Shown piece after piece: positions 638 to 64,000 of a stretch of DNA of 64,000 nucleotides; within the stretch, counting starts at the first letter, position 1, and each line of letters begins with the position of its first letter. The translations under genes and the position numbers were made by a program. The stretch covers positions 1 through 64,000 of the forward strand of contig NZ_JAAMPJ010000013.1 in the NCBI RefSeq assembly GCF_011067745.1. Direction: 5' to 3'. The notes under the pieces were generated by a model. That model searched no databases and was not told the origin of the DNA. It worked only from the letters and a program-made list of their open reading frames with translations. Origin of the DNA: Lentzea alba (GTDB lineage: Bacteria; Actinomycetota; Actinomycetes; Mycobacteriales; Pseudonocardiaceae).

Positions 638-2160
<1,523 letters not shown>

Positions 2161-2207
2161 GGGCTTTGCCTCCCGCATCGTTGCGAAACCGGTGGCGACG
2201 CTAGGTA

Positions 2208-3401
2208 GTGCGACGTTTCACGCACGTTGCATCCGAAAGGAGTAACGCTCGGGTCCAGAAGGCCAGTCATCCTGGGGAGGTGACGGACCTCGGCGAAGCA
2301 ACGCGGCCGGTGATCGCCGAGTCGTGGCAGCGGTCTCTCGCGGCGCGCGTCGACCCCGACCGCCACGAGGCGCCGGTCGTCTACGCGCCCGACGAGATCG
2401 CGGACCTGCGCGGCACGCATCCGCTGGCAGCCGCCGTGCCGCTGCTCAAGCACACGCTGTCGATGGACGACACGATCATGATCGTCACCGACACCGGTGG
2501 CCACGTCCTGTGGTGCGAGGGCGACAACGGGGTGCGGCACAGCGCCGAACGCGTCCACCTGACCGAGGGCTCGCGCTGGAGCGAGGACGTCATCGGCACC
2601 AACGCGATGGGCACCGCTCTCGCGACCGGCAAACCCGTCACCGTGCACTCCCGCGAACACCTCGTGCGCACCTACCACGGCTGGACCTGCGCGGCGAGCC
2701 CGATCCGCGACCCCCACACGGGTCTGCTGCTGGGCGTTGTCGACGTCAGCGGGCCGCTGAAGACCATGCACCCGGCCGTCGCGCAGCTCGTGTCCGCCGC
2801 CGCCCGGCTGGCCGAGCACCACCTGCAGCAGTTCGCGCCACGCCAACACGTGCTGACGTTGAACTTCCTCGGCGGCCTGCACGCCGATCTCGACGGACGG
2901 CCGTTGGCGCTGACGTTGCGCAACGCGGAGGTCCTGGCGGCGCTCGCCCTGCACCCCAAGGGACTCACCGCCGAACAGTTCGCATTGTTGCTCTATGGTG
3001 AGAGAGGGAACCCGACCACGGTCCGTGCGGAGCTGCATCGGCTGCGTGCGCAGCTCGGTGGTGTCCTGTTGACGAGGCCGTACCGGCTCGATGCCGTGGT
3101 GCGCGGCGACTTCCTGGACGTGCGGACCGCGCTGAGGTCCGGCGACGCGGGCAAGGCGACCCGGCACTACCACGGCGAGTTGCTACCCCGTTCGGACGCA
3201 CCGGTGATCCGCGAGGAACGACTGGATCTCGCCGCCGCGGTGCGCAAAGGCGTGCTGGAGCGGGGAGATCTCGACGCGCTGCTGTCGTTCGCGGACAGCG
3301 GCGAGGACGCCGAAGTGCTCGAACGCCTCCGGTTGCTCCTTCCGTCCGCGGACCCTCGTCATGCTCTTGTCTCCTCGCGCCTGCGAAGGGCGCTGGAATA
3401 G
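2208..3401 (+). CDS. GAF-domain transcriptional regulator (AcoR-like sensor without the AAA domain)
   Basis: The 397-residue product has an [19 protein letters not shown] motif near residue 35 and a GAF sensor segment with the typical [19 protein letters not shown] motif. Further in are [10 protein letters not shown] and GVVDVSGPL, as in AcoR-type activators. The sigma-54 AAA module is absent. The C-terminal half instead has [25 protein letters not shown], a winged-helix-like stretch common in actinobacterial GAF regulators next to alcohol or aldehyde dehydrogenases. The start is uncertain: GTG 2208 is the only start codon upstream of the conserved region. GTG 2280 has GGGGAGG too close, and an orphan AAAGGAG sits at 2236-2242. 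It is divergent from the aldehyde dehydrogenase, its likely target. Confidence 0.85.
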
Positions 3402-51768: not shown

Positions 51769-52914
51769 TCGAGTGCCCAACAAGCGTTGGTCGTAGGAGC
51801 CGGGATCGCCGGGCTTTCCACGGCGTGGTGGCTGGAACGCGCGGGATGGGAGGTGCTCGTCGTCGAGCGGGCACCGTCGTTCCGCGCGGGCGGCTACATG
51901 ATCGACTTCTTCGGGCCGGGTCACGAGGTGGCGCGGCGGATGGGGTTGCTGCCGGCGTTGGAGTCCCGTCGCGCGCCGATCTCCTCGGTGACGAGCGTGG
52001 ATGCTCGGGGGAACCGGCGGAGCGAGATTTCCGCGTCGGCCTACGAGTCGGTCGCCTCCGGGGTGATCAGCCTGTTGCGCGGCGATCTGGCCGACGTGAT
52101 CCGCGCGGACGTGCGCAGCTCGATCCGGTACGGGGTAACGGTTACCGCTCTCGACGACGGCCGGGTGACGTTCTCGGACGGTTCGGTTCGCTCGTTCGAC
52201 CTGATCGTGGGCGCGGACGGGGTGCACTCGACGGTGCGGAAGCTGGTGTTCGGGCCGGCGGCGGCGTTCGTGCGGTATCTGGGGCATCACACGGCGGCGT
52301 TCTCGTTCCAGGACGAGTCGTTGGCCGCTCGGATCGGTTACCGGTACCAGATGTTGACGGTGCCCGAGCGGATGATCGGCTGCTACGCCGTGCGGGACGG
52401 CGCGATGGCCGCGCTGATGTTGTACCGCTCGTCGTCGCCGGAGTTGCCCGCGGATCCGGCGGCGGAGCTGCGTTCGCGGTTCGGTGACCTGGGCTGGGTG
52501 GCGCCCGATCTGCTTTCCGTGGTGCCTGAGGACATCTACTACGACGAAGTGTCCCAAGTGGACATGCCGTCGTGGCATAGCGGGAAGGTCGTGCTGGTCG
52601 GTGACGCGTGCGGGGCCGTGTCGCTGTTCGCCGGCCACGGTGCGTCCCTGGCGATGACCGGCGCGTTCGTGCTGGCGGAAGAGCTTTCTGGTGGTGTCGA
52701 GGGTGCCTTCGACCGCTATCAGGCCCGGATGAAGCCCGCCGTCGAGCACACCCAGGCGTTCGGGCGGCGGTTCATCGGCTGGATGGCGCCCCCGTCCCGC
52801 TGGCGGATCTCGGTGCGCGACATGGCTTTCCGATTGTCCGGGCTGCCCGTCGTGCGGAACCTGATCCGCGGCTCGGTCATGCCGGACGTGGACGGCGTGC
52901 TCACGCCCGCCTAG
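51760..52914 (+). CDS. FAD-dependent monooxygenase (TetX/PHBH-like)
   Basis: A 384-residue flavoprotein: Rossmann motif VVGAGIAGLSTAWWLERAGWEV, RAGGYMIDFFGPGHEVARRM as in TetX-type enzymes, DG motif VGADGVHSTVRKLVFG and GD motif VVLVGDACGAVSLFAGHGASLAMTGA, split by the flavin loop. A C-terminal helix closes the fold. Relatives inactivate tetracyclines or hydroxylate polyketides and aromatics. The transcript is probably leaderless. An HxlR-type relic lies convergently at its 3' end. Confidence 0.9.
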   Translation: MPKSSAQQALVVGAGIAGLSTAWWLERAGWEVLVVERAPSFRAGGYMIDFFGPGHEVARRMGLLPALESRRAPISSVTSVDARGNRRSEISASAYESVASGVISLLRGDLADVIRADVRSSIRYGVTVTALDDGRVTFSDGSVRSFDLIVGADGVHSTVRKLVFGPAAAFVRYLGHHTAAFSFQDESLAARIGYRYQMLTVPERMIGCYAVRDGAMAALMLYRSSSPELPADPAAELRSRFGDLGWVAPDLLSVVPEDIYYDEVSQVDMPSWHSGKVVLVGDACGAVSLFAGHGASLAMTGAFVLAEELSGGVEGAFDRYQARMKPAVEHTQAFGRRFIGWMAPPSRWRISVRDMAFRLSGLPVVRNLIRGSVMPDVDGVLTPA

Positions 52915-53054
52915 CGAGCGTCGTACGCTTCGCGGTTCACCATGACCTCGGCGATGTGCGCCTCGGCCCAGCGGCACAGCACCAGCAACGGCTCGTGCAG
53001 GTGGCGGCCAGCACGCTCCAGTCCGGCATGGTCTGTGACATGGCGCACATCCAT
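52911..53054 (-). pseudogene. HxlR-family regulator remnant (C-terminal part only)
   Basis: A 47-codon frame opens at ATG 53054 and ends at TAG 52913-52911. Residues VTDHAGLERAGRHLHEPLLV, then LCRWAEAHIAEVMVNREAYD, match the end of HxlR winged-helix regulators (LTEAGRxLxPVLxALxxWGxxH). The DNA-recognition helices are absent; a TAA stop lies just upstream in frame. It is most simply the remnant of a deleted regulator gene. Confidence 0.65.
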
Positions 53055-53070
53055 CCATTAGTTACGTTGA

Positions 53071-53084
53071 GGTAATTGGTTACC
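53071..53084. promoter_or_regulatory. GGTAA-N4-TTACC operator-like palindrome
   Basis: GGTAATTGGTTACC is a perfect 5-bp inverted repeat; a second symmetry, TTAC-gttgag-GTAA (53062-53075), overlaps it. Such GTAAC/GTTAC repeats are the kind bound by HxlR-type regulators. It precedes the SnoaL-like gene by 40 bases, next to the HxlR remnant. Confidence 0.5.
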
Positions 53085-53124
53085 TTTGGTGAGCATAGGG
53101 CAACGCCAGCGAAAAGGAGAAGCC

Positions 53125-53520
53125 ATGACCACCCCGCTCACCGTCGTGACCACCTACTTCGAGGCCCTCGAGTCCGGCGACTTCGCCACCGTCGCCGCCC
53201 AGTTCGCCGACGACGTCGTGTGGCACCAGCCGGGTTCGAACCGCTTTTCCGGCGTCCACCACGGCCCTGACGCCGTGGGCGCGATGATCGGCGGCATGAT
53301 GTCGATCTCCGAGGGCGCCTTCACGCTTCACCGCAACGGTCCGTTGATGGTCAACGGGGACGTCGTGGCCGCGACCGTGCACTGGACCGGCAAGCGCTCC
53401 GGTGCCGAGATGGACGGTGTGGGCGTGGACCTGATGCGCGTGGCCGACGGCAAGGTGGCCGAGGTGTGGCTGTTCACCGCCGACCCGGCCGAGGAAGACG
53501 CTTTCTGGGGTGCTGCCTGA
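53125..53520 (+). CDS. SnoaL-like NTF2-fold protein
   Basis: A 131-residue protein with AAAAGGAG in front of ATG 53125. The pattern VVTTYFEALESGDFATVAAQ, then FADDVVWHQPGSNRFSGVHH, AVGAMIGGMMSISEGAF and MRVADGKVAEVWLFTADPA is typical of the SnoaL-like/ketosteroid isomerase-like family. It may act on small molecules; the function is not predictable. The HxlR remnant and its operator-like repeats lie just upstream. Confidence 0.88.
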   Translation: MTTPLTVVTTYFEALESGDFATVAAQFADDVVWHQPGSNRFSGVHHGPDAVGAMIGGMMSISEGAFTLHRNGPLMVNGDVVAATVHWTGKRSGAEMDGVGVDLMRVADGKVAEVWLFTADPAEEDAFWGAA

Positions 53521-53566
53521 CCCGTTCGGGTCGTAACGGCATCGGGCCGTGGCGCGAGATCTTTAC

Positions 53567-56476
53567 ATGTCCGCGCCACGGCAGTACCCCGGTGTGATGG
53601 TGTCGTCGACCTACGCCGACCTGCGCGAACACCGGGCGGCGCTGATGAGCGCGATCCAGGGACAGCAACTCCACGCCGTGGCGATGGAAGACGACACTGC
53701 CCGCCTGGTCACCGTCGTCGAGTCGTCGCTCGAGAAGGTGCGGGACGCGGCGGCCTACGTCGCGATCATCGGCCGCCGCTACGGCGCCGTGCCGGAGTGC
53801 GCCGCGAACCCCGACGGCCTTTCGCTCACCCACCTGGAATTCCGCGAGGCGGTGCGGCTGGGCCGGCCGATCCTGGTGTTCATCATGGGCGCCGGCCACC
53901 TCGTCACCGAGGACGGTGTCGAGCTCGACCCGGTCAAGCGGGCGAAGCTGGAGAAGTTCCGCGAGGAGGCCAAGTTCGCGGGCGGGGACGTGCACCAGGT
54001 CTACGACGAGTTCACGGACCTGGCCTCGTTCGCCACCGCGGCCACGAAGGCGGTGGCCGAGTTGCGCCGTGTGCTCGAAACGCCGCAACCTCGGTCCGAG
54101 AGCGAAGACCACATCCCGGCCGCGCCCGCCCTGTACGCGAAACCGCGCTATCTCGGGTCGCACGACTTCGTCGGCCGCGAGGCGCAGCTGGCGACGTTGA
54201 GCGACTGGGCCAAGCCCGCCGGACAGCACCCGGTGTTGTTGTTCGAGGCGATCGGCGGGTCCGGCAAGAGCATCCTCACCTGGGAGTGGACGAACCGGCA
54301 CGCGCCGGGTGTGCGCGGGGACTGGGCCGGCCGGTTCTGGTACTCCTTCTACGAGGCCGGTGCGGTGATGTCGGACTTCTGCCGGCACGCCCTCGCGTAC
54401 ATGACCGGGAAGCCGCTCAAAGCTCTTGCCGCCAAGAACCAACCGGAACTGACCGAGCTGTTGGTGCAGGAGCTGGAGTCCAGGCCGTGGTTGCTGGTGC
54501 TCGACGGGCTCGAACGCGTCCTGGTCGCCTATCACCGGCTCGACGCCGCCCAGGTGCGTGACGAACAGGCGGGAGGCTCGGACGAGATCGCGCACCGCGA
54601 CCCCACGACCGCCATCCGGCCGGAGGACGACGACCTGTTGCGGTCCTTGGCCGGTGCGGCGCCGTCGCGGATCCTGGTGACCTCGCGGCTCGTCCCGAGA
54701 GTGCTGCTCAACCAGTCCAGCCAGCCGATTCCCGGGGTGCTGCACGAGCGCCTGCCCGGCCTGCGGCCCGCCGACGCCGAGGCCCTCATGCGCAACTGCG
54801 AGGTGAGGGGCGACGCCGCGGCGATGCAGTCGTTCCTGCAGCGCCATTGCGACTGCCATCCGCTCGTCACCGGCATCGTGGCGGGCCTGGTGAACGACTA
54901 CCCGCCTGCCCGCGGCGACTTCGACAGGTGGTCGACCGACCTGAAACACGGCGGGAGCCTGGAGATCGGCGGGCTCGATCTCGTGCAGAAGCGCAACCAC
55001 GTCCTGAGCAAGGCGGTCCACAACCTGCCGAGGGCGAGCCGGAGGCTGTTGTCCACCTTGGCGTTGCTGTCGGGTGCGGTCGACTACGCGAGGCTCGACG
55101 TGTTGAACCGGCGGCGGTCCAGCGCGGCAGCGGTGTCGGATCTGGAACGCAGAGGCCTCCTCCAGTGCGACCGGCAAACCGGTCAGTACGACCTGCATCC
55201 GGTGGTTCGCGCCGTGGTGGCGGACGGCTTGGGTGCCTGGGACCGGAGACGTCTCGGCAACCTGGTGATCGACTACTTCTCCGCCCGCAGGACGACCCGG
55301 TACGAGGCCGTCAGCAGCCTGGACGAACTTCAGGACGACATCACGCTGGTCCGGACGCTGGTGCGCCGGGGCCGGCTGACCGCGGCCGCCGATGTCTACC
55401 TGGGAGGGCTGGACAGGGTGCTGAGGCACCAGTTCGAAGCCGTTGCCGAGATGTCGTCGTTGCTCCGTCCGTTCTTCGGCACGGAATGGTCATCGCCGTC
55501 GCCCAAGTTGCCGGCCGGCGTCGCCTCGGCTCTGGTGAACGACGCGGCCAGCACGTTGAGCCGCCTCGGAGACAGCGGCCAGGCGCGGAAGGCGTGGGAG
55601 ACGGCGTTCCGCCTGGCGATCAAAAGCGGTGACCAGAGAGAGGCTGTGGTGAACCTGTCGAACATCGCCCTCGCAGTGCACTCGGCCAACCGGGTGGCGG
55701 CATCGTGGCGCATCAGGCAGTTGAACCTGCAAGCAGCGGATCGCGTCGCAGACGTGAGGTACGTGCACTGCGCCCGGTTGGACGCTTTCGAATGGCTCGC
55801 CCAGGCCGGCCGGGGCGAGGAGGCGGAAGAGATGCGGAACACGCTGCCTCCCGGAGGCGGCGAAGACGACTTCATGCGGAGGCAAAGGTGTGAAGCCGCA
55901 CTTGTGCACGCCCTCTTCCAGGCCGACCGCGGCGTCCTGACCGACGACGAGCTGGCGAAGGTCGAAGCACAAGGCCGCCGGGCCAACCACCGGGAGGTGA
56001 TTCGGAGTGTGCGTCTGCTGCGCGGCTCGTTGCTCGCGCAGCGCGGTGATTGGCACGGTTCCGCGACCGAGCTGAGCGAGGCGGTGCGGATGGCACGGGA
56101 AGTCGGCATCCCCAGCCCCGCGGCGGAAACCAGGCTCGCCTTGGCGCAGTTCCACCTGGGCCAGCTGTCCGACCCGGCTCAAGTGGCCGGCCGGTTGGCC
56201 GACCAGCACGGCGGTTCGGATCACCAGGCGCTGGCCGAACTCTGGCTCGCCATCGGTGATGCCGACAAGGCCCGCGAACACGCGCTCATCGCCTGCCGGT
56301 GGGCCTGGGCGGACGGCGAGCCCTATGTCCGGTACTACGAGCTGGAACAGGCGAAGCGGTTGCTCGCCGAGTTGGGTGCCCCGATCCCGGTGTTGCCTCC
56401 CTACGACCCCGCCAACGACCCGGAACTGCCGATCGAGGCCGAGGCAAGGGCGTTCCTGAAGACGCTCCGGCGGTGA
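53567..56476 (+). CDS. DUF4062-STAND NTPase with C-terminal repeats; candidate immune sensor
   Basis: A 969-residue protein (GTG 53549 would add six). Residues about 1-110 are DUF4062 (GVMVSSTYADLREHRAALMS, VAIIGRRYGAVPE, LTHLEFREAVRLGRPILVF), a Toll-like or nucleotide-handling fold. About 200-440 is a STAND/NB-ARC-type ATPase: P-loop AIGGSGKSILTW near residue 229, Walker B WLLVLDGLE near 308, then ILVTSR. The remaining part has helical TPR-like repeats. DUF4062-STAND proteins occur in anti-phage and apoptosis-like systems. It is alone, with no Shine-Dalgarno sequence, which suggests low constitutive expression. Confidence 0.82.
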   Translation: MSAPRQYPGVMVSSTYADLREHRAALMSAIQGQQLHAVAMEDDTARLVTVVESSLEKVRDAAAYVAIIGRRYGAVPECAANPDGLSLTHLEFREAVRLGRPILVFIMGAGHLVTEDGVELDPVKRAKLEKFREEAKFAGGDVHQVYDEFTDLASFATAATKAVAELRRVLETPQPRSESEDHIPAAPALYAKPRYLGSHDFVGREAQLATLSDWAKPAGQHPVLLFEAIGGSGKSILTWEWTNRHAPGVRGDWAGRFWYSFYEAGAVMSDFCRHALAYMTGKPLKALAAKNQPELTELLVQELESRPWLLVLDGLERVLVAYHRLDAAQVRDEQAGGSDEIAHRDPTTAIRPEDDDLLRSLAGAAPSRILVTSRLVPRVLLNQSSQPIPGVLHERLPGLRPADAEALMRNCEVRGDAAAMQSFLQRHCDCHPLVTGIVAGLVNDYPPARGDFDRWSTDLKHGGSLEIGGLDLVQKRNHVLSKAVHNLPRASRRLLSTLALLSGAVDYARLDVLNRRRSSAAAVSDLERRGLLQCDRQTGQYDLHPVVRAVVADGLGAWDRRRLGNLVIDYFSARRTTRYEAVSSLDELQDDITLVRTLVRRGRLTAAADVYLGGLDRVLRHQFEAVAEMSSLLRPFFGTEWSSPSPKLPAGVASALVNDAASTLSRLGDSGQARKAWETAFRLAIKSGDQREAVVNLSNIALAVHSANRVAASWRIRQLNLQAADRVADVRYVHCARLDAFEWLAQAGRGEEAEEMRNTLPPGGGEDDFMRRQRCEAALVHALFQADRGVLTDDELAKVEAQGRRANHREVIRSVRLLRGSLLAQRGDWHGSATELSEAVRMAREVGIPSPAAETRLALAQFHLGQLSDPAQVAGRLADQHGGSDHQALAELWLAIGDADKAREHALIACRWAWADGEPYVRYYELEQAKRLLAELGAPIPVLPPYDPANDPELPIEAEARAFLKTLRR

Positions 56477-56527: not shown

Positions 56528-57673
56528 GTGGAACGGGAACGCAGGTGGGCGGACAAGGGTGAGGCCATCGGGCACGGCGTGAGCTGGCTCGCGCGGTGGA
56601 GTCTGCGGGTGGCGCTGGCGGCGCTCGGCTTCTGGATGGTCGTGTGGGTGATCGGCCAGCTCTGGGTGGTCGTGATGCCCGTGTTGCTGGGCTTGCTGAT
56701 CACGACGGTGTTGTGGCCGCCGGCGCGCTGGTTGATGTCCAAGGGGTTCAACTCGGCGTTGGCGGCGACGATCGTGCTGATCGTCGGCCTGGCGGTGCTG
56801 GGCGGGGTGATCGCGGCGATCTCCACGTCGATCGCGTCCGGTGTGCCGGAGATCGCGCAGAGCGCGCAGAAGGCCATCACGCAGTTGCAGGACTGGGCCT
56901 CGGGGCCGCCGTTCAACCTCAAGGACACCGACCTCGACCGGTTGATCGCTCAGGGCGTCGAGCAGGTCAAGTCGAGCATCGGGTCGATCGCCAACGGGTT
57001 GCTGACCGGCGCCGGCGCGGTGACGTCCGGTGTCGTCACCGGTTTGGTCGCGCTGCTGCTCGCGTTCTTCTTCGTCAAGGACGGCATGCGGTTCACGCCG
57101 TGGCTGCGCGGGCTCATCGGTGAGCGTGCGGGCGGGCACGTGACGACGGTGCTGGAGCGGGTGTGGGTCACGCTCGGCAGCTTCATCCGCAGCCAGGCGG
57201 TCGTGTCGCTCATCGACGCGGTGTTCATCGGGCTGGGCCTGGTGATCCTCGGCGTGCCGCTGGCGGTTCCGCTGGCCGCGCTGACGTTCCTCGGCGGGTT
57301 CATCCCGATCATCGGCGCGTTCATCGCCGGCGCCCTGGCGGTGCTGGTCGCGTTGGTCAGCAACGGTCTGACGACGGCCATCATCATGCTGATCATCGTG
57401 ATCGTGGTGCAGCAGGTCGAGGGCAACGTGCTGCAGCCCATCCTGCAGTCGCGCAGCCTGCGGTTGCACGCGGCGGTGGTGTTGCTGGTGGTCACCGCGG
57501 GTACCAGCATCTACGGGATCGCGGGCGCGTTCTTCTCGGTGCCGGTCGCCGCGGCCGTGGCCGTCGTCCTGCGCTACCTGGGCGAGGTCATCGAGGCGAG
57601 GTCGGTGCCCGTAATGGATACGTCACAACCTGACGGGGATGATGAGCCCGCCCCCGAACGTTCCCCTGAGTGA
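56528..57673 (+). CDS. AI-2E family transporter (TqsA/PerM-like)
   Basis: A 381-residue membrane protein: N-terminal helices ([20 protein letters not shown], then [16 protein letters not shown]), an extracellular amphipathic section with [20 protein letters not shown], and the AI-2E/UPF0118 block [20 protein letters not shown]. The C-terminal helices with [20 protein letters not shown] and [20 protein letters not shown] complete the family. Substrate is uncertain; some members are ion antiporters rather than signal exporters. Confidence 0.9.
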
Positions 57674-58740: not shown

Positions 58741-59589
58741 TCAGGAGGTCGGGGTCTCGCCGACCCAGGCGCCGGACAGCAGGTACCGGGGCAGGTAGTC
58801 GGACTCCACGCGCACTTCGATGCCCACTTCTTGGGCGAGCACGGCCATCGCCAGCGGCGCCAGCGCGATGAAACCGTCGGGATTCGTCGCCCGGTCAGCA
58901 GCGGACCAGTGCTGCCGGTGCAGGTCGAGCGCGCGTTCCAACGACTCGTTGAACCGGTCCGCGTCGCGGTCGAGCACGTAGTACAGCAGCTCCATGGGCG
59001 GGTAGATCAACCGCGTGATCAGTTCCTGCGGGGTGTCCGACGCGCTGTTCACCAGCTCCACGGTCGTGGCGAACTTCGCGTCGAGGTCCGGACCGTTGCG
59101 GAAGAAGGTCTGCAGGGTGTCGACCCAGGCGTACATGAAGTCGTCGTAGCCGACGTCCGCCGCGCGCATCACCTCCTCCGGGACCGAGGCCAGCGCCGTC
59201 AGCCGCTGCTCCTCGCGGCAGATGACCGCGAGCCACGTCGCGGTGAGCCAGTACCCGGCGCGGTTGTGCTGGCCCGGTGGGGTGGTCGAGATGCGCATCC
59301 TGCGGCCGACGGTGTACTCGATCGACTCCACGGACGTGTCGACCACCGCGAACAGCGCCGACGCGGCCTGCATCGCGGTGACCAGGTCGTCCCAGGTCAA
59401 CACGTCCTTGGCGGTGGGGTCGGGCACCGTGCGCAGTGCGGCCAGCTTCAGCGACCTGCGCAGCACGGAGGTCAACGCGAGCGGGGTCCGCTCCACCTGG
59501 TCGATGAACGTCGGCAGAATGGCGGATGTCTCCGCGATCATCTCCCCGGCCAGCTCGCGGTCGACTTCATGGCGCGGCAAGGTTGTCAC
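58741..59589 (-). CDS. Imm49-family immunity protein
   Basis: A 282-residue, mostly helical protein. It begins at GTG 59589 within a GTGA overlap with the toxin gene directly upstream. Recognised by GYWLTATWLAVICREEQRLT, ADVGYDDFMYAWVDTLQTFF and the C-terminal FIALAPLAMAVLAQEVGIEV, then SDYLPRYLLSG, as in Imm49 immunity proteins of polymorphic toxin systems. It should bind and neutralise the toxin's C-terminal nuclease. The overlap ensures stoichiometric expression. Confidence 0.88.
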   Translation of the reverse strand: MTTLPRHEVDRELAGEMIAETSAILPTFIDQVERTPLALTSVLRRSLKLAALRTVPDPTAKDVLTWDDLVTAMQAASALFAVVDTSVESIEYTVGRRMRISTTPPGQHNRAGYWLTATWLAVICREEQRLTALASVPEEVMRAADVGYDDFMYAWVDTLQTFFRNGPDLDAKFATTVELVNSASDTPQELITRLIYPPMELLYYVLDRDADRFNESLERALDLHRQHWSAADRATNPDGFIALAPLAMAVLAQEVGIEVRVESDYLPRYLLSGAWVGETPTS

Positions 59590-62500
59590 GATTCCGTCCC
59601 AGTGGTGGGGTACAGGTTGACGGGCTTGTAGTCGAAGCCTGCGTATGTCGCGGTTCTCGCACCGGTTTCCTGATCGACCCGCGCCCTGACCTCGACATAA
59701 TCCACTCGTCGATCGTTCAGTGCAATTTCGATCTGAGCCGCGAGGGCCCGCTTGTTCGGGTCCTTGTCGTTGGCCATCGCATCGAGCACGTCCTCCATGT
59801 AGTCGCGCCTGAGCTGGTTGACGCTGGTGCCGTCGGGAAGCGTGCGGGCGCTGTATTCGCCCTTCGGGCCCTTGGCCTCCTGGATGACGTAGCGCGGGTT
59901 GTCGGCCCCGCGTTCGTGGATCTCGAAGATCTGGTCGAACTCCCCGCTGCCCGCGCCGGTGTTGTGCAGCGGCCGGACCGTCGCCAGCGGCTCGCCGGGA
60001 TTGTTCGGATCGACCACGTCGAACACTTCGCGGCCAGGGTTGTCCGGATCGGCGCGCCGCACGAAGTCGACGTCGCCGCCGTACTCGCGGGCCAGCCGGT
60101 TGCGAAACGCTAGTTCGCCCGCCTCCTCGCCGAGCACCTCACCCGCGTCCCTCCGCCGGGACATCGCGTCCTTCATCTCCTGCGAACCGCCATCGAACGA
60201 TTTGGAGGTCTTCTCGTGGTGAGCAGCGGCGGCGTTGCGCTCCTCCATGGCCACGCGGATGCGCTCGCGGTGTTCTTCGCGCCACCCGCTCGTGCTGGGT
60301 CGTTCCGGAGCGGTTGCGGTGTCCTGCGGCGTGCCGGTGGTGTTCGCGGACGTGTCCGAGTGGTCCGGTGTGCGGGCGTCCTCCGGCTCCTTCGGCAACA
60401 CCCGCCTTTCGTTCTCGTCAAACCGCTCGTGCCTGCTCTTGTCGAAATCGGGGCGCAACGGGGGCGGAGCGTCCTTGGCGAACTCGAGCCTGCCGTTCCT
60501 CCAACGCAAATGGTGCGTTTCTTTCCCGTCCGAGTCCTCGCGTGCCCCAGGCCTGCGCGCGATGATGACTTTGCCGTCGTTGTCCTTGTACTTGATGTAG
60601 TGCTTGTCGAAGTAGCTCTGATCGTCGATCTTCTCTCGCGGGGTCTTCCCCGACGGTTGATCCGGTTTTTTCTGCCACGAGTCGTCCGGCTTGCCCCGGT
60701 CGCGGGCGCCGGCGGGGTCGAGGTCGGTTTTGTCGGTGTCTTTGGTGCCGGGGACGAAGCCGTCGTCACCGGCTTTGGTGGTGGTGCCGTCGGGACGGTG
60801 GGTTTGCCATTCGCCGTTGGGCGGGATTTTGGGTTGGCGGTTGCCGTCTGGGCCGATTTCGGCGTCGCTGGTGTAGACGCGGCCTGATGCATCGGTCCAG
60901 GCGGGTTTGGTGGGAGCCAGGACGTCGGCGCCGGTGTGGCGGGAGAGACGGTTGGCGAAGTCGTTGGAGCCGGCGTCGCAGCCGATGAGGCGGATGGGGG
61001 TTCTGCCGTCCCAGCCGTTGCGGCGCAGGAGGTCGCCGTATTCCTCGGGCGTGTAGGTGTGGTTGCCGATGCGGGCGCGTCCGTCGGGGGTGACGTGGAC
61101 GTCGGCGGTGAAGTAGCGCGGGTCGTGGGGGACGCGGTGCGGTAGGTCGCCCATGTCCGGGTCGCCGCGGTGGTGCGAGATGCCGGCGGGAGTGCTTTCG
61201 CCGTGACGGGCGTGTGCCTCGTCGATGTCCGGCCGGTCCGCGTCGCGATGGGGAGTGCCGTCCGGATCCTTGTGCGGGGTGCCGGGATCGGTGCCGTCGG
61301 GATCTCGCCGGGGTGGGGTCCCCTGCTCGGGGTCACGACGTGGGCCGGGCGTGCCGTCTGGCTCGCGGCGGGGTGCCGGAACGTCGTCGGGCGCACGGCG
61401 AGGCGGGTCGTGGTGTGGCGGTGAGGTGTCGTGGGGCCGGGTGCCCGGCACGTCGTGCTGGTGCGGTGGCACGGGGTTGCGGGCCGGAGCATCGGCGGCC
61501 CTGGGACGTGCGCCGTCCGGACGGGGGCCGGGTGCCGGCCCGTCCGGGCGGGCGTTGCCCGGTGTCGGTCCGGCGGGCCGGGTGCCGGGTGGTCCGGCCG
61601 GGCGGGGGCCGTCGGGCCGGGGGCCAGGGGGCGTTCCACCGGGGCGGGTGCCCGGTGCTGGTAGGTCCGGGCGCGACGAGCCGGAGCCCGCTCGCGATGG
61701 GCCGGTGTGCTGCGGTCCGCGCTGCGGTGGCGGGCTTGCGTGGGACTGATTCGCGTGCGGCGGGACCGACTGCGGTCCCCGCTGCGGCGGCTGACCCGCG
61801 TTGGTGTGCGGTGGTGTGTAGCTGGACGGGTCGGTGCTTCCAGGGCGGGCGTGGGTGGGATCGACTGCCCTCGGGGGCTGGCCGCCGGGTGCGCTTCCCG
61901 GGCCCCCGTGTGCGGCGGGCGAGGTGGGACTGGTGTAGCCGGGACCGTGCGCCGGCGGGCCCGCGTGAGGGGCGGCCGGGTGCGGGGTGGAGGCGGCGGA
62001 CGGGCTGACGGATGACGGGCGGGCGTTGTCGGGCGTGCGGGCCGACGGCGTGGAGGAGCCCAGGTCGCCTCGGCTCCCCGGAGTTCCGGTCCAACCGCCG
62101 CCGCCTGGCCGCGCGCCGCCACCAGCAGGTGCGCCACCACCGGATCCAGTCCCAGCCGGTGCACCTCCACCGGACGGTGCACCGCCGTGGGTCGGGTGCT
62201 GGGCGGGTGTGCCGGGCGGGGTGGAGTTCGGTGCGTTGGGGTGGGGTTGGCCGGGACGGCTTGGCGCTTCCGGGGCTGCGGTCGTGGCCGCTGAGGTGCT
62301 GTCGGTGCGGGACGGTGTCGGCGCGGTGGGCGAACCACCGCTGTTACCGCCACCATCAGCGCCTCCGCCGTGAGAACCGCCGCTGGTCGTGGGGCCACCT
62401 CCACCACCGGCGGTGGTGATCGGCTGTCCCGCCGGCCCGCTCCGGTGGCCGCCCGACGGCGTGGCGTCGCGCGGGGTGGTGGACGGGCCGGAAGCGGGCG

Positions 62501-63785
62501 CGGTGCCTCGCGGGACGTCGTCGACGTCGGTGCTGCTGGGGTGGCGCCCGGGACGCGGCGCCGTGGTGGGCGTGTCGGCGGGTTCGCTGCGTCCTGGCCG
62601 GGTGGCGGGGTCGGCCGTCGGGGTGCCGGTGCTGGAGGTCGAGGTGGTGTCGCGAGGGAGGTTGGAGGACGGCGAATCCGGGCTGGGCGTGTTCGGGCCG
62701 GGTGCGGACGAGCTGGACGTGTTCGGGCCGGGCGTGGCCGAGCCGGGTGTGTTCGGACCGGGTGAGGACGCGCCGGGTGAGGACGCGCTGGGTGTGTTCG
62801 GGCCGGGCGAGGACGACCCGGGCGCGTTCGGGCTGGGCGCGTTCGGATCGGGCGTGGCCGAGCTGGGCGTGGCCGAGCCGTCGTCTCCCCGACCGGCGGC
62901 GCCGGACGGCGCGTCGATGTCCGGCCGTCCGGTCTGCACGAACCCGCCAGGCCTGACGTTGCCCGAACTCAGCGCGTCCAGCCCGGTGACCTTGCGCGCG
63001 AGCTTGCCGACCGCCTTCATGATCTTCTCGAAGACCTCGACCAACCGCTTCAGCAGCGGGGAGACCTTCTTGATCGTGTTCAGCAGGTCCTGGACGATCT
63101 TCGCGATCTTGGCCGCCCACCTGGAGATCGCGGCCACGGCCTGCGCCACGATCACCGGCGTCCCGAAGCCCAGCGAGAACGCGGCTTCCAACACCCAGGC
63201 GATCAACTTGCCGACCAGGTCGGCGATCAGGTCGCGCACCATCTCGCGCACGAAGGCCACGACCATGCCCATCATGCCGACGACCGTGCCCACGGTCCCC
63301 GCCGCCGACGCCGCACCGGTCAACGCGTCCCCGTGAACCTTCGAGTTCTCCAGGTACTTCTCGGCCGCCGCGCCGGTCCAGCCCTTGGCCCCGGAGGCGA
63401 CCAACGCGCCGTACTCCTCGGCGATCTTGCCCAGCTCCTCGGAGACCTTCCCCCACGTCGCCGAGTACGACTCGATCACCGGAGGATCGCCCGCCAGCCA
63501 GTCCAGCATGTCCTTGAGCGGCTGCACGTGTTCCATCAGGAACGATGCCGCCGACGACATCAGCGTGCCGAACGGGTCGATGGCCATCGCCGCCGCGTCC
63601 GCGGCCAACCCGACCATCCCGAGGCCCGCCTCGACCCAGTTGCCGTCCTTGACGCCGTTGAACGTGTCCATCGCCGACTCCGCGATGGAGATCCCGGTCA
63701 TCCACCCGTTGTCACCGGTACCGGCGTTGACAAGGCCACCCGGTTCCGCATCGGGCTTGACCACCAGCTCGTTCGGTCCGGTCAC
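59586..63785 (-). CDS. Polymorphic toxin: WXG-type N-terminus, Pro/Ser-rich repeat linker, C-terminal restriction-endonuclease-fold nuclease
   Basis: A 1,399-residue secreted toxin starting at GTG 63785, inside a GTGA overlap with a 12-codon leader. Residues 1-280: helical ESX/WXG100-like segment (GWMTGISIAESAMDTFNGVK, KGWTGAAAEKYLENS) and several hydrophobic helices. Residues about 300-860: low-complexity Pro/Ser/Gly repeats (SPGPNTPS-type). About 880-990: a domain with DVHVTPDG and RLIGCDAGSNDFANRLSRHT, giving a His near 896 and a Cys near 935, reminiscent of autoprocessing modules. About 1205-1399: nuclease with FDQIFEI (Asp near 1283) and YVIQEAKGPKG (Glu and Lys near 1303-1305), a PD-(D/E)xK-like active site. 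Imm49 follows. Confidence 0.85.
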   Translation of the reverse strand: MTGPNELVVKPDAEPGGLVNAGTGDNGWMTGISIAESAMDTFNGVKDGNWVEAGLGMVGLAADAAAMAIDPFGTLMSSAASFLMEHVQPLKDMLDWLAGDPPVIESYSATWGKVSEELGKIAEEYGALVASGAKGWTGAAAEKYLENSKVHGDALTGAASAAGTVGTVVGMMGMVVAFVREMVRDLIADLVGKLIAWVLEAAFSLGFGTPVIVAQAVAAISRWAAKIAKIVQDLLNTIKKVSPLLKRLVEVFEKIMKAVGKLARKVTGLDALSSGNVRPGGFVQTGRPDIDAPSGAAGRGDDGSATPSSATPDPNAPSPNAPGSSSPGPNTPSASSPGASSPGPNTPGSATPGPNTSSSSAPGPNTPSPDSPSSNLPRDTTSTSSTGTPTADPATRPGRSEPADTPTTAPRPGRHPSSTDVDDVPRGTAPASGPSTTPRDATPSGGHRSGPAGQPITTAGGGGGPTTSGGSHGGGADGGGNSGGSPTAPTPSRTDSTSAATTAAPEAPSRPGQPHPNAPNSTPPGTPAQHPTHGGAPSGGGAPAGTGSGGGAPAGGGARPGGGGWTGTPGSRGDLGSSTPSARTPDNARPSSVSPSAASTPHPAAPHAGPPAHGPGYTSPTSPAAHGGPGSAPGGQPPRAVDPTHARPGSTDPSSYTPPHTNAGQPPQRGPQSVPPHANQSHASPPPQRGPQHTGPSRAGSGSSRPDLPAPGTRPGGTPPGPRPDGPRPAGPPGTRPAGPTPGNARPDGPAPGPRPDGARPRAADAPARNPVPPHQHDVPGTRPHDTSPPHHDPPRRAPDDVPAPRREPDGTPGPRRDPEQGTPPRRDPDGTDPGTPHKDPDGTPHRDADRPDIDEAHARHGESTPAGISHHRGDPDMGDLPHRVPHDPRYFTADVHVTPDGRARIGNHTYTPEEYGDLLRRNGWDGRTPIRLIGCDAGSNDFANRLSRHTGADVLAPTKPAWTDASGRVYTSDAEIGPDGNRQPKIPPNGEWQTHRPDGTTTKAGDDGFVPGTKDTDKTDLDPAGARDRGKPDDSWQKKPDQPSGKTPREKIDDQSYFDKHYIKYKDNDGKVIIARRPGAREDSDGKETHHLRWRNGRLEFAKDAPPPLRPDFDKSRHERFDENERRVLPKEPEDARTPDHSDTSANTTGTPQDTATAPERPSTSGWREEHRERIRVAMEERNAAAAHHEKTSKSFDGGSQEMKDAMSRRRDAGEVLGEEAGELAFRNRLAREYGGDVDFVRRADPDNPGREVFDVVDPNNPGEPLATVRPLHNTGAGSGEFDQIFEIHERGADNPRYVIQEAKGPKGEYSARTLPDGTSVNQLRRDYMEDVLDAMANDKDPNKRALAAQIEIALNDRRVDYVEVRARVDQETGARTATYAGFDYKPVNLYPTTGTES
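62689..62885. repeat. Imperfect tandem repeat in the toxin linker
   Basis: gtgttcgggccggg-type units begin at 62689, 62719, 62749 and 62794, with shorter variants (gcgttcgggctggg) to 62885. On the minus strand they encode SPGPNTPSA-like repeats. Spacing is mostly multiples of 15 bases, so length variation would keep the frame. Confidence 0.7.
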
Positions 63786-63820
63786 GGACACCACCGCGAC
63801 ACGTCGCCAAGACCAGCCAT
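63782..63820 (-). CDS. 12-codon leader ORF coupled to the toxin gene
   Basis: GGGAGGG (63828-63834) stands 7 bases before ATG 63820. The frame encodes MAGLGDVSRWCP and ends at a TGA overlapping toxin GTG 63785 as GTGA. The toxin's own GTG has no ribosome site of this quality. Either the toxin is translated by coupling, or a frameshift separates the true N-terminus. A leader with this spacing could tune the toxin dose (inference). Confidence 0.55.
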   Translation of the reverse strand: MAGLGDVSRWCP

Positions 63821-63889
63821 GGCGTAGCCCTCCCGTTTTCCGCCAGGCATTCGGTGCCCAACGATGACGGGAGGCGGACACGGCCGGTT

Positions 63890-64000
63890 TCAAAGCTCGG
63901 CGATGTCAATCAGTTGGAGTAATCCGATCAGGTGGAGACGGACACAGCCGACCAGGCGGGCGGCGTCCGCCGGGGAGCAGGTCCGACCAGTCGCGCCGTT
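63890..64000 (-). CDS. C-terminal end of an unidentified protein (window edge)
   Basis: An open frame enters from the right edge and ends at TGA 63892-63890. The 36 visible residues include CSPADAARLVGCVRLHLIGL and LQLIDIAEL. Codon use is mostly G/C-ending but includes one TTA. The protein is not recognisable from this piece. It would precede the toxin on the same strand. Confidence 0.4.
   Translation of the reverse strand, partial: NGATGRTCSPADAARLVGCVRLHLIGLLQLIDIAEL

Follow-up and report, generated by a model that had tools for sequence, protein, structure and literature searches.

This locus raises the question of whether a bacterial protein in which a DUF4062 domain precedes a STAND P-loop NTPase and a TPR superhelix is an immune receptor of the NLR-like type. 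The protein is the product of one large gene in a 64-kb stretch of the Lentzea alba genome (hereafter the window), and a preliminary description made from the sequence had given it the effector-switch-sensor layout of NLR-like proteins and proposed it as an immune sensor. The gene proved to be real, and its 969-residue product contains the DUF4062 head, the STAND switch and the TPR superhelix in that order. What is new, as judged by sequence comparison, is that DUF4062 belongs to a set of several interchangeable heads carried by a STAND-TPR core absent from the family and defence libraries searched, which joins a newly recognised family of NAD+ hydrolases (NADases) to a bacterial receptor outside those libraries. 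We consider the protein to be probably an NLR-like abortive-infection receptor with an NAD+-depleting DUF4062 head.

Domain layout and the predicted NADase site

The DUF4062 head of the window protein scores 65.3 bits against the Pfam model (cut-off 24.7) and has an alpha/beta fold in the predicted structure. The single match found by phmmer in the PDB is KpSwz, the Swarozyc protein of Klebsiella pneumoniae (10wc; E 3.2e-8; query residues 7–155 against chain residues 6–146). According to passages of a May 2026 preprint (PMC13174449), DUF4062 is a TIR-like NADase family in anti-phage defence, of whose genes about 20% sit in predicted defence islands; the same passages report NADase activity for KpSwz, which shields E. 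coli against phages via abortive infection, requires E97 and is activated by the phage portal. The putative catalytic glutamate of the window protein, E91, aligns with an Ala at chain position 84 of 10wc that most simply corresponds to the KpSwz E97A site, on a numbering that we infer because the 15-C, E97A construct given in passages of PMC13174449 fits with an offset of 13. E91 is invariant in all 24 aligned full-length DUF4062 proteins. H89, which lies one turn earlier and is Glu in most relatives, was an alternative candidate for the residue matching KpSwz E97; it was set aside, the chain Ala being counted opposite E91. The placing of DUF4062 in the effector position, which the preliminary description had regarded as poorly characterised, is borne out by the assignment to this NADase family in the passages of PMC13174449 and by the retention of the aligned Glu.

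The switch is recognised from alignment and model, Pfam giving weak matches in the NTPase region of the window protein with a trace of the P-loop only. Both GGxGKS and DGLER are kept in the 24 aligned proteins, as is H544-P-V-x-R548 downstream, and the loss of P-loop residues across the family that the preliminary description would have counted against an immune role is not seen. Residues 477–554, where the predicted structure has helices and a beta-wing (confidence 60–80) followed by the TPR superhelix, we take from general knowledge of STAND proteins to be a winged helix, with HPVVR presumably an MHD-like motif. A profile search of the core against solved structures returned weak matches to TPR proteins only. 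An alternative GTG start at 53549 would add six residues to the protein.

The effector-STAND-repeat layout is also that of AVAST (Avs) proteins, but none of the Avs profiles of PADLOC matches the window protein at E <= 1 and by the profiles searched it is not an Avs. NCBIfam likewise gives no match to it at E <= 1. With KpSwz it shares the TIR-like DUF4062 head with an aligned catalytic Glu, the single-gene organisation and, from passages of PMC13174449, a sparse and apparently mobile distribution. However, KpSwz is short (a 326-residue chain) while the window protein bears its head on a STAND NTPase and TPR superhelix, and the match between them covers the head only. KpSwz senses the portal through a winged/HTH-like auxiliary domain, as described in the same passages, and because this sensor domain is missing here the window protein falls, by its domain content, outside the KpSwz type of Swarozyc.

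Exchanged heads and a divergent sensor

The evidence for head exchange comes from 46 loci chosen by exact peptide patterns, many of them metagenome bins possibly containing foreign contigs, whose heads were typed by reading frames together with profile matches. The STAND-TPR core is sparse and spread over many phyla. An intact DUF4062 head occurs in 24 of the 46 loci, among them L025, where a HATPase_c_4 domain (also present in L030) has been added, and L022, in which two TIR-type heads, DUF4062 and then TIR_2, stand in series (1296–2282, plus strand). Four loci have a SIR2 head (L030, L044, L049 and L052), two a calcineurin-like phosphoesterase (metallophosphoesterase) head (L032 and L042) and two a caspase-like head, called by Pfam in L035 and by PADLOC only in L039, where the expected His is, by eye, apparently Tyr. 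The other 14 of the 46 comprise four with broken frames (L017, L037, L040 and L043) and ten that are truncated. Beyond the 46, the phosphoesterase-headed L089 shares its metagenome-derived genome with a DUF4062 copy, L033. Different models of PDC-S60, a PADLOC candidate, weakly match the metallophosphoesterase heads of L032 and L042 and the DUF4062 head of L055 (E 6.5e-9 to 2.3e-4), and none matches the core.

A quick tree built from 40 cores requires 10 changes of head type against a mean of 10.8 for shuffled heads, a value as low being reached in 34 of 200 shufflings, and the two caspase-like rows group together. The well-supported branches alone force at least five changes for DUF4062. Heads thus appear to have moved many times on the core, the exact number being unsure because only 10 of the 37 inner branches are well supported. 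As a principle this is already known: passages of Kaur et al. 2020 and 2021 (PMC7159879 and PMC8195603) describe other STAND conflict proteins, likewise NLR-like, in which TIR, caspase, calcineurin and SIR2 heads are interchanged on a constant STAND core. The word DUF4062 does not occur in the full text of either article, the present core was not identified in their relevant passages, and no description of it was found in searches of open-licence PMC text.

At the opposite end of the protein it is the sensor that varies, as comparison of four Lentzea genomes by identity and by nonsynonymous (dN) and synonymous (dS) substitution rates reveals. The DUF4062 head is 71–83% identical between these genomes, the NTPase region 73–85% and the adjoining AI-2E protein 87–95%, against 28–43% for sensor residues 641–800. 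Differences per residue in the sensor are 2.5–3.7 times those of the NTPase, with dN of 0.50–0.89 and 0.09–0.19 respectively.

Distribution and the insertion site

Relatives of the gene are scarce in surveys of the family, of Actinomycetota and of Planctomycetota in which two to three candidates were scored per genome. At E <= 1e-30 there are matches in 8 of 297 Pseudonocardiaceae genomes, every one of them Lentzea. Within the genus 8 of 24 genomes match: six at full length, one by a C-terminal part only (G266) and one by the head only. Among 296 Actinomycetota genomes the source genome itself is the one match at E <= 1e-60, and five of 392 Planctomycetota genomes match, two of them already among the known loci. 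Cores labelled Lysobacterales, Verrucomicrobiaceae and Planctomycetaceae are 84–87% identical, which suggests transfer, with the reservation that these records are metagenome bins. A further core (L061, 14728–17880, plus strand) lies on a mobilizable plasmid of Nostoc sp. ATCC 53789 (NZ_CP046715.1), where it has a short head that looks HTH-like by eye, a reading that Pfam does not confirm; a RelE/ParE toxin gene is found about 1 kb downstream.

In Lentzea the flanks are housekeeping-like and the gene between them is an optional insert. The AI-2E gene of the right flank is present in 23 of the 24 Lentzea genomes and a FAD monooxygenase gene in 20, and the site was compared in 20 genomes, the source included; left out were G170 and G230, which carry a receptor copy elsewhere, G266, and G182, which has no AI-2E match. 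The site holds the receptor in four of the 20 (the source, G272, G282 and G290, the last with DUF4142 as its other neighbour), a 691-aa DUF4062-KAP_NTPase gene in one (G156; L097:1211–3283, minus strand) and neither gene in 15. Eleven empty sites were measured, with 57–108 bases, mostly 61, between the SnoaL and AI-2E matches. The preliminary description had held that consistent occurrence in conserved metabolic or housekeeping loci would argue against an immune role; no such locus recurs across phyla, and while the Lentzea flanks are indeed housekeeping-like the gene is optional there. The HxlR remnant that it had placed upstream gives way to an intact SnoaL-like gene: frames at about 53083–53579 (minus strand) and 52608–53072 (plus strand), examined for such a remnant, have no Pfam match. 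At the G170 copy the receptor is adjoined by a CHAT-TPR gene (L111:11957–14461, minus strand), within some 4 kb of sequence missing from the otherwise similar G230 locus.

An 11-bp inverted repeat places the ATG of the gene in the loop of a potential hairpin. It is present in all five genes at the Lentzea site, the DUF4062-KAP gene of G156 included, and absent from both copies located elsewhere. The right arm is coding and holds the sole CCA among the 111 Pro codons of the five genes. A folding energy of −35.9, against −28.6 +/− 3.2 for shuffled sequence and matched in 12 of 500 shufflings, makes the hairpin moderately unusual, and a pattern with 8-bp arms occurs at two genome positions, equal to the reversed control. 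The case for it lies more in its conservation in the five genes and in the unique CCA than in these figures. In the mRNA the hairpin may mask the start codon, or it may serve as the operator for a regulator; a constraint at the protein level may alternatively have conserved the repeat. More speculatively, and with doubt, the site could be a fixed receptor slot with exchangeable modules, being empty or holding either DUF4062-STAND-TPR with a species-specific sensor or DUF4062-KAP under the same hairpin. Hairpin and head would here stay constant while NTPase and sensor cassettes were swapped behind them by recombination, the hairpin holding a lethal protein at a low level or under control; at other loci the core would be constant and the head exchanged, both ends of the protein then being modular.

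Table 1. Positions in the window of the receptor gene, its parts and its flanking genes.
Feature	Coordinates	Strand	Residues	Basis or remark
DUF4062-STAND-TPR gene	53567..56476	+	969 aa	Intact frame
TIR-like DUF4062 head	53567..54082	+	1–172	Pfam match residues 10–95, E 5.9e-18
E91, putative catalytic Glu	53837..53839	+	91	Opposite chain position 84 (Ala) of PDB 10wc
STAND P-loop NTPase region	54134..54901	+	~190–445	Alignment and model
Walker A, AIGGSGKS	54248..54271	+	228–235	All but residue 232 invariant in 24/24
Walker B-like, DGLER	54503..54517	+	313–317	Invariant in 24/24
Presumed winged-helix region	54995..55228	+	~477–554	HPVVR at 544–548; alignment and model
TPR superhelix	55235..56371	+	~557–935	Model; weak Pfam TPR matches
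Most variable sensor part	55487..55966	+	641–800	28–43% identity among 4 Lentzea genomes
WAWADGEP motif	56300..56323	+	912–919	914–919 invariant in 24/24
11-bp inverted repeat	53546..53582	+		Arms 53546–53556 and 53572–53582; ATG in loop
SnoaL-like gene, left flank	53086..53520	+		Pfam; site comparison
AI-2E family transporter gene, right flank	56528..57673	+		Pfam; site comparison

A candidate abortive-infection receptor and its rivals

Several observations favour an immune gene: one core with SIR2, caspase-like and calcineurin-like heads, patchy occurrence and an optional site. By analogy with known STAND proteins, the TPR superhelix and the winged helix would at rest keep the STAND NTPase closed. 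The trigger, for which a phage protein is the most likely candidate, would bind the variable part of the superhelix, upon which the NTPase would oligomerise and gather the TIR-like DUF4062 heads; these, if they act as KpSwz does and as the conserved E91 would allow, would hydrolyse NAD+, and the infected cell would stop or die ahead of phage release. With its core alignable across phyla, its heads exchanged and its sensor diverging within one genus at one site, the family offers a natural set of variants in which to study how detection and killing change in a bacterial NLR-like receptor. It also mirrors, in bacteria, the DUF4062-NACHT arrangement of TEP1.

A number of results weigh against this interpretation. 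The preliminary description had proposed enrichment near known defence genes as a test, and in the neighbourhoods of 13 relatives (175 genes called with a simple longest-frame script, the nearest 118 scanned) there is none when compared with contig-start regions from those 13 genomes (189 genes called, 121 scanned): in this small sample seven PADLOC families, one gene each, were found among the neighbours at E <= 1e-10 versus 83 among the controls, many of the latter being profiles of one reverse transcriptase type. The neighbours are mixed metabolic genes with no common family, and the receptor gene appears to act alone and, in the 13-locus sample, is not a gene of defence islands. PADLOC has no family for the window protein at E <= 1, and against 35 cores it gives two weak, unrelated matches at E <= 0.01. 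No relative was found in 50,697 phage records or in a scan of viral contigs. The predicted structure has a predicted template modelling (pTM) score of 0.51. The G+C content is 0.692 in the gene and 0.696 around it, so the insertion, if recent, would have come from a similar genome or have adapted. The sensor has raised dS (0.84–1.12 versus 0.47–0.89 in the NTPase) and dN/dS exceeds 1, as positive selection would require, in none of 36 domain-by-pair comparisons, being 0.54–0.90 in the sensor; relaxed constraint or recombination could therefore explain the result, which we take as divergence only and which may stem from diversifying selection, exchange of sensor segments or relaxed constraint.

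Finally, the human proteins TEP1, NWD1, NWD2 and NPHP3 also pair DUF4062 with an ATPase of the STAND class (NACHT), as passages of PMC13174449 describe, although they are eukaryotic and, unlike the window protein, carry WD40 or other repeats. Three of the four lacked NADase activity when assayed, TEP1 being the active one according to these passages, and NADase activity of the window protein is for this reason a prediction. The proposal of an immune sensor is supported in part, by domain order, conserved residues, head exchange and patchiness, while the expected enrichment of defence genes was not seen.

The same evidence bears on the alternatives. A STAND regulator of physiology or development of the MalT or AfsR type, with a metabolite or peptide bound by the TPR superhelix and DUF4062 signalling through protein contact, is unlikely. 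Structure comparison does liken the superhelix of the model to MalT domain III and to the Rap/NprR peptide sensors, yet the Pfam matches of the window protein at E <= 1 include no HTH family and no DNA-binding domain was found in it, an enzyme-like head standing in that place as compared with MalT-type regulators. The three inactive human proteins would suit signalling by contact, whereas the putative catalytic Glu is invariant in the 24 aligned proteins and the other heads on this core are enzymes characteristic of effectors that kill cells or target nucleotides. Both the HTH-like head of the Nostoc plasmid relative and the lack of association with defence genes fit a regulator; a sparse, optional occurrence is ill-suited to a core one.

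Quite improbable, in our estimate, is a receptor directed not at phages but at plasmids or other mobile elements, or one that kills in kin or self-recognition among multicellular bacteria. Passages of PMC7159879 and PMC8195603 consider roles of this kind for related conflict systems in multicellular prokaryotes, and the divergence of the sensor between species, like the plasmid-borne copy, would agree with them, but the sole bacterial DUF4062 system tested senses a phage portal (passages of PMC13174449) and some relatives come from phyla whose representatives in this set are not known to be multicellular. That the gene is an insert which is decaying or inactive and serves no present function is very improbable, since against the four broken frames among the loci and the C-terminal-only match of G266 stand an intact window frame of 969 codons with all key residues and a dN/dS of 0.15–0.48 in head and NTPase between the Lentzea genomes.

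Apart from the candidate abortive-infection receptor, three more DUF4062 proteins above the cut-off are encoded in the source genome: one with NB-ARC and TPR_10/TPR_12 repeats (L114:7376–10186, minus strand), a 1207-aa protein that matches AAA weakly (L115:9300–12920, plus strand) and one of 402 aa (L116:8211–9416, plus strand). In two Lentzea genomes, DUF4062 proteins (L141 and L142) with a GGPGSGKS P-loop and FDGLDE, both read by eye, resemble DUF4062-NACHT proteins, again by eye. Further along the window, an Imm49 immunity protein gene (58741–59589, minus strand; E 2.6e-58) directly adjoins a gene for a 1435-aa Pro-rich protein with a weakly PPE/WXG100-like N-terminus (59589–63893, minus strand), and the two likely form a polymorphic toxin-immunity pair.

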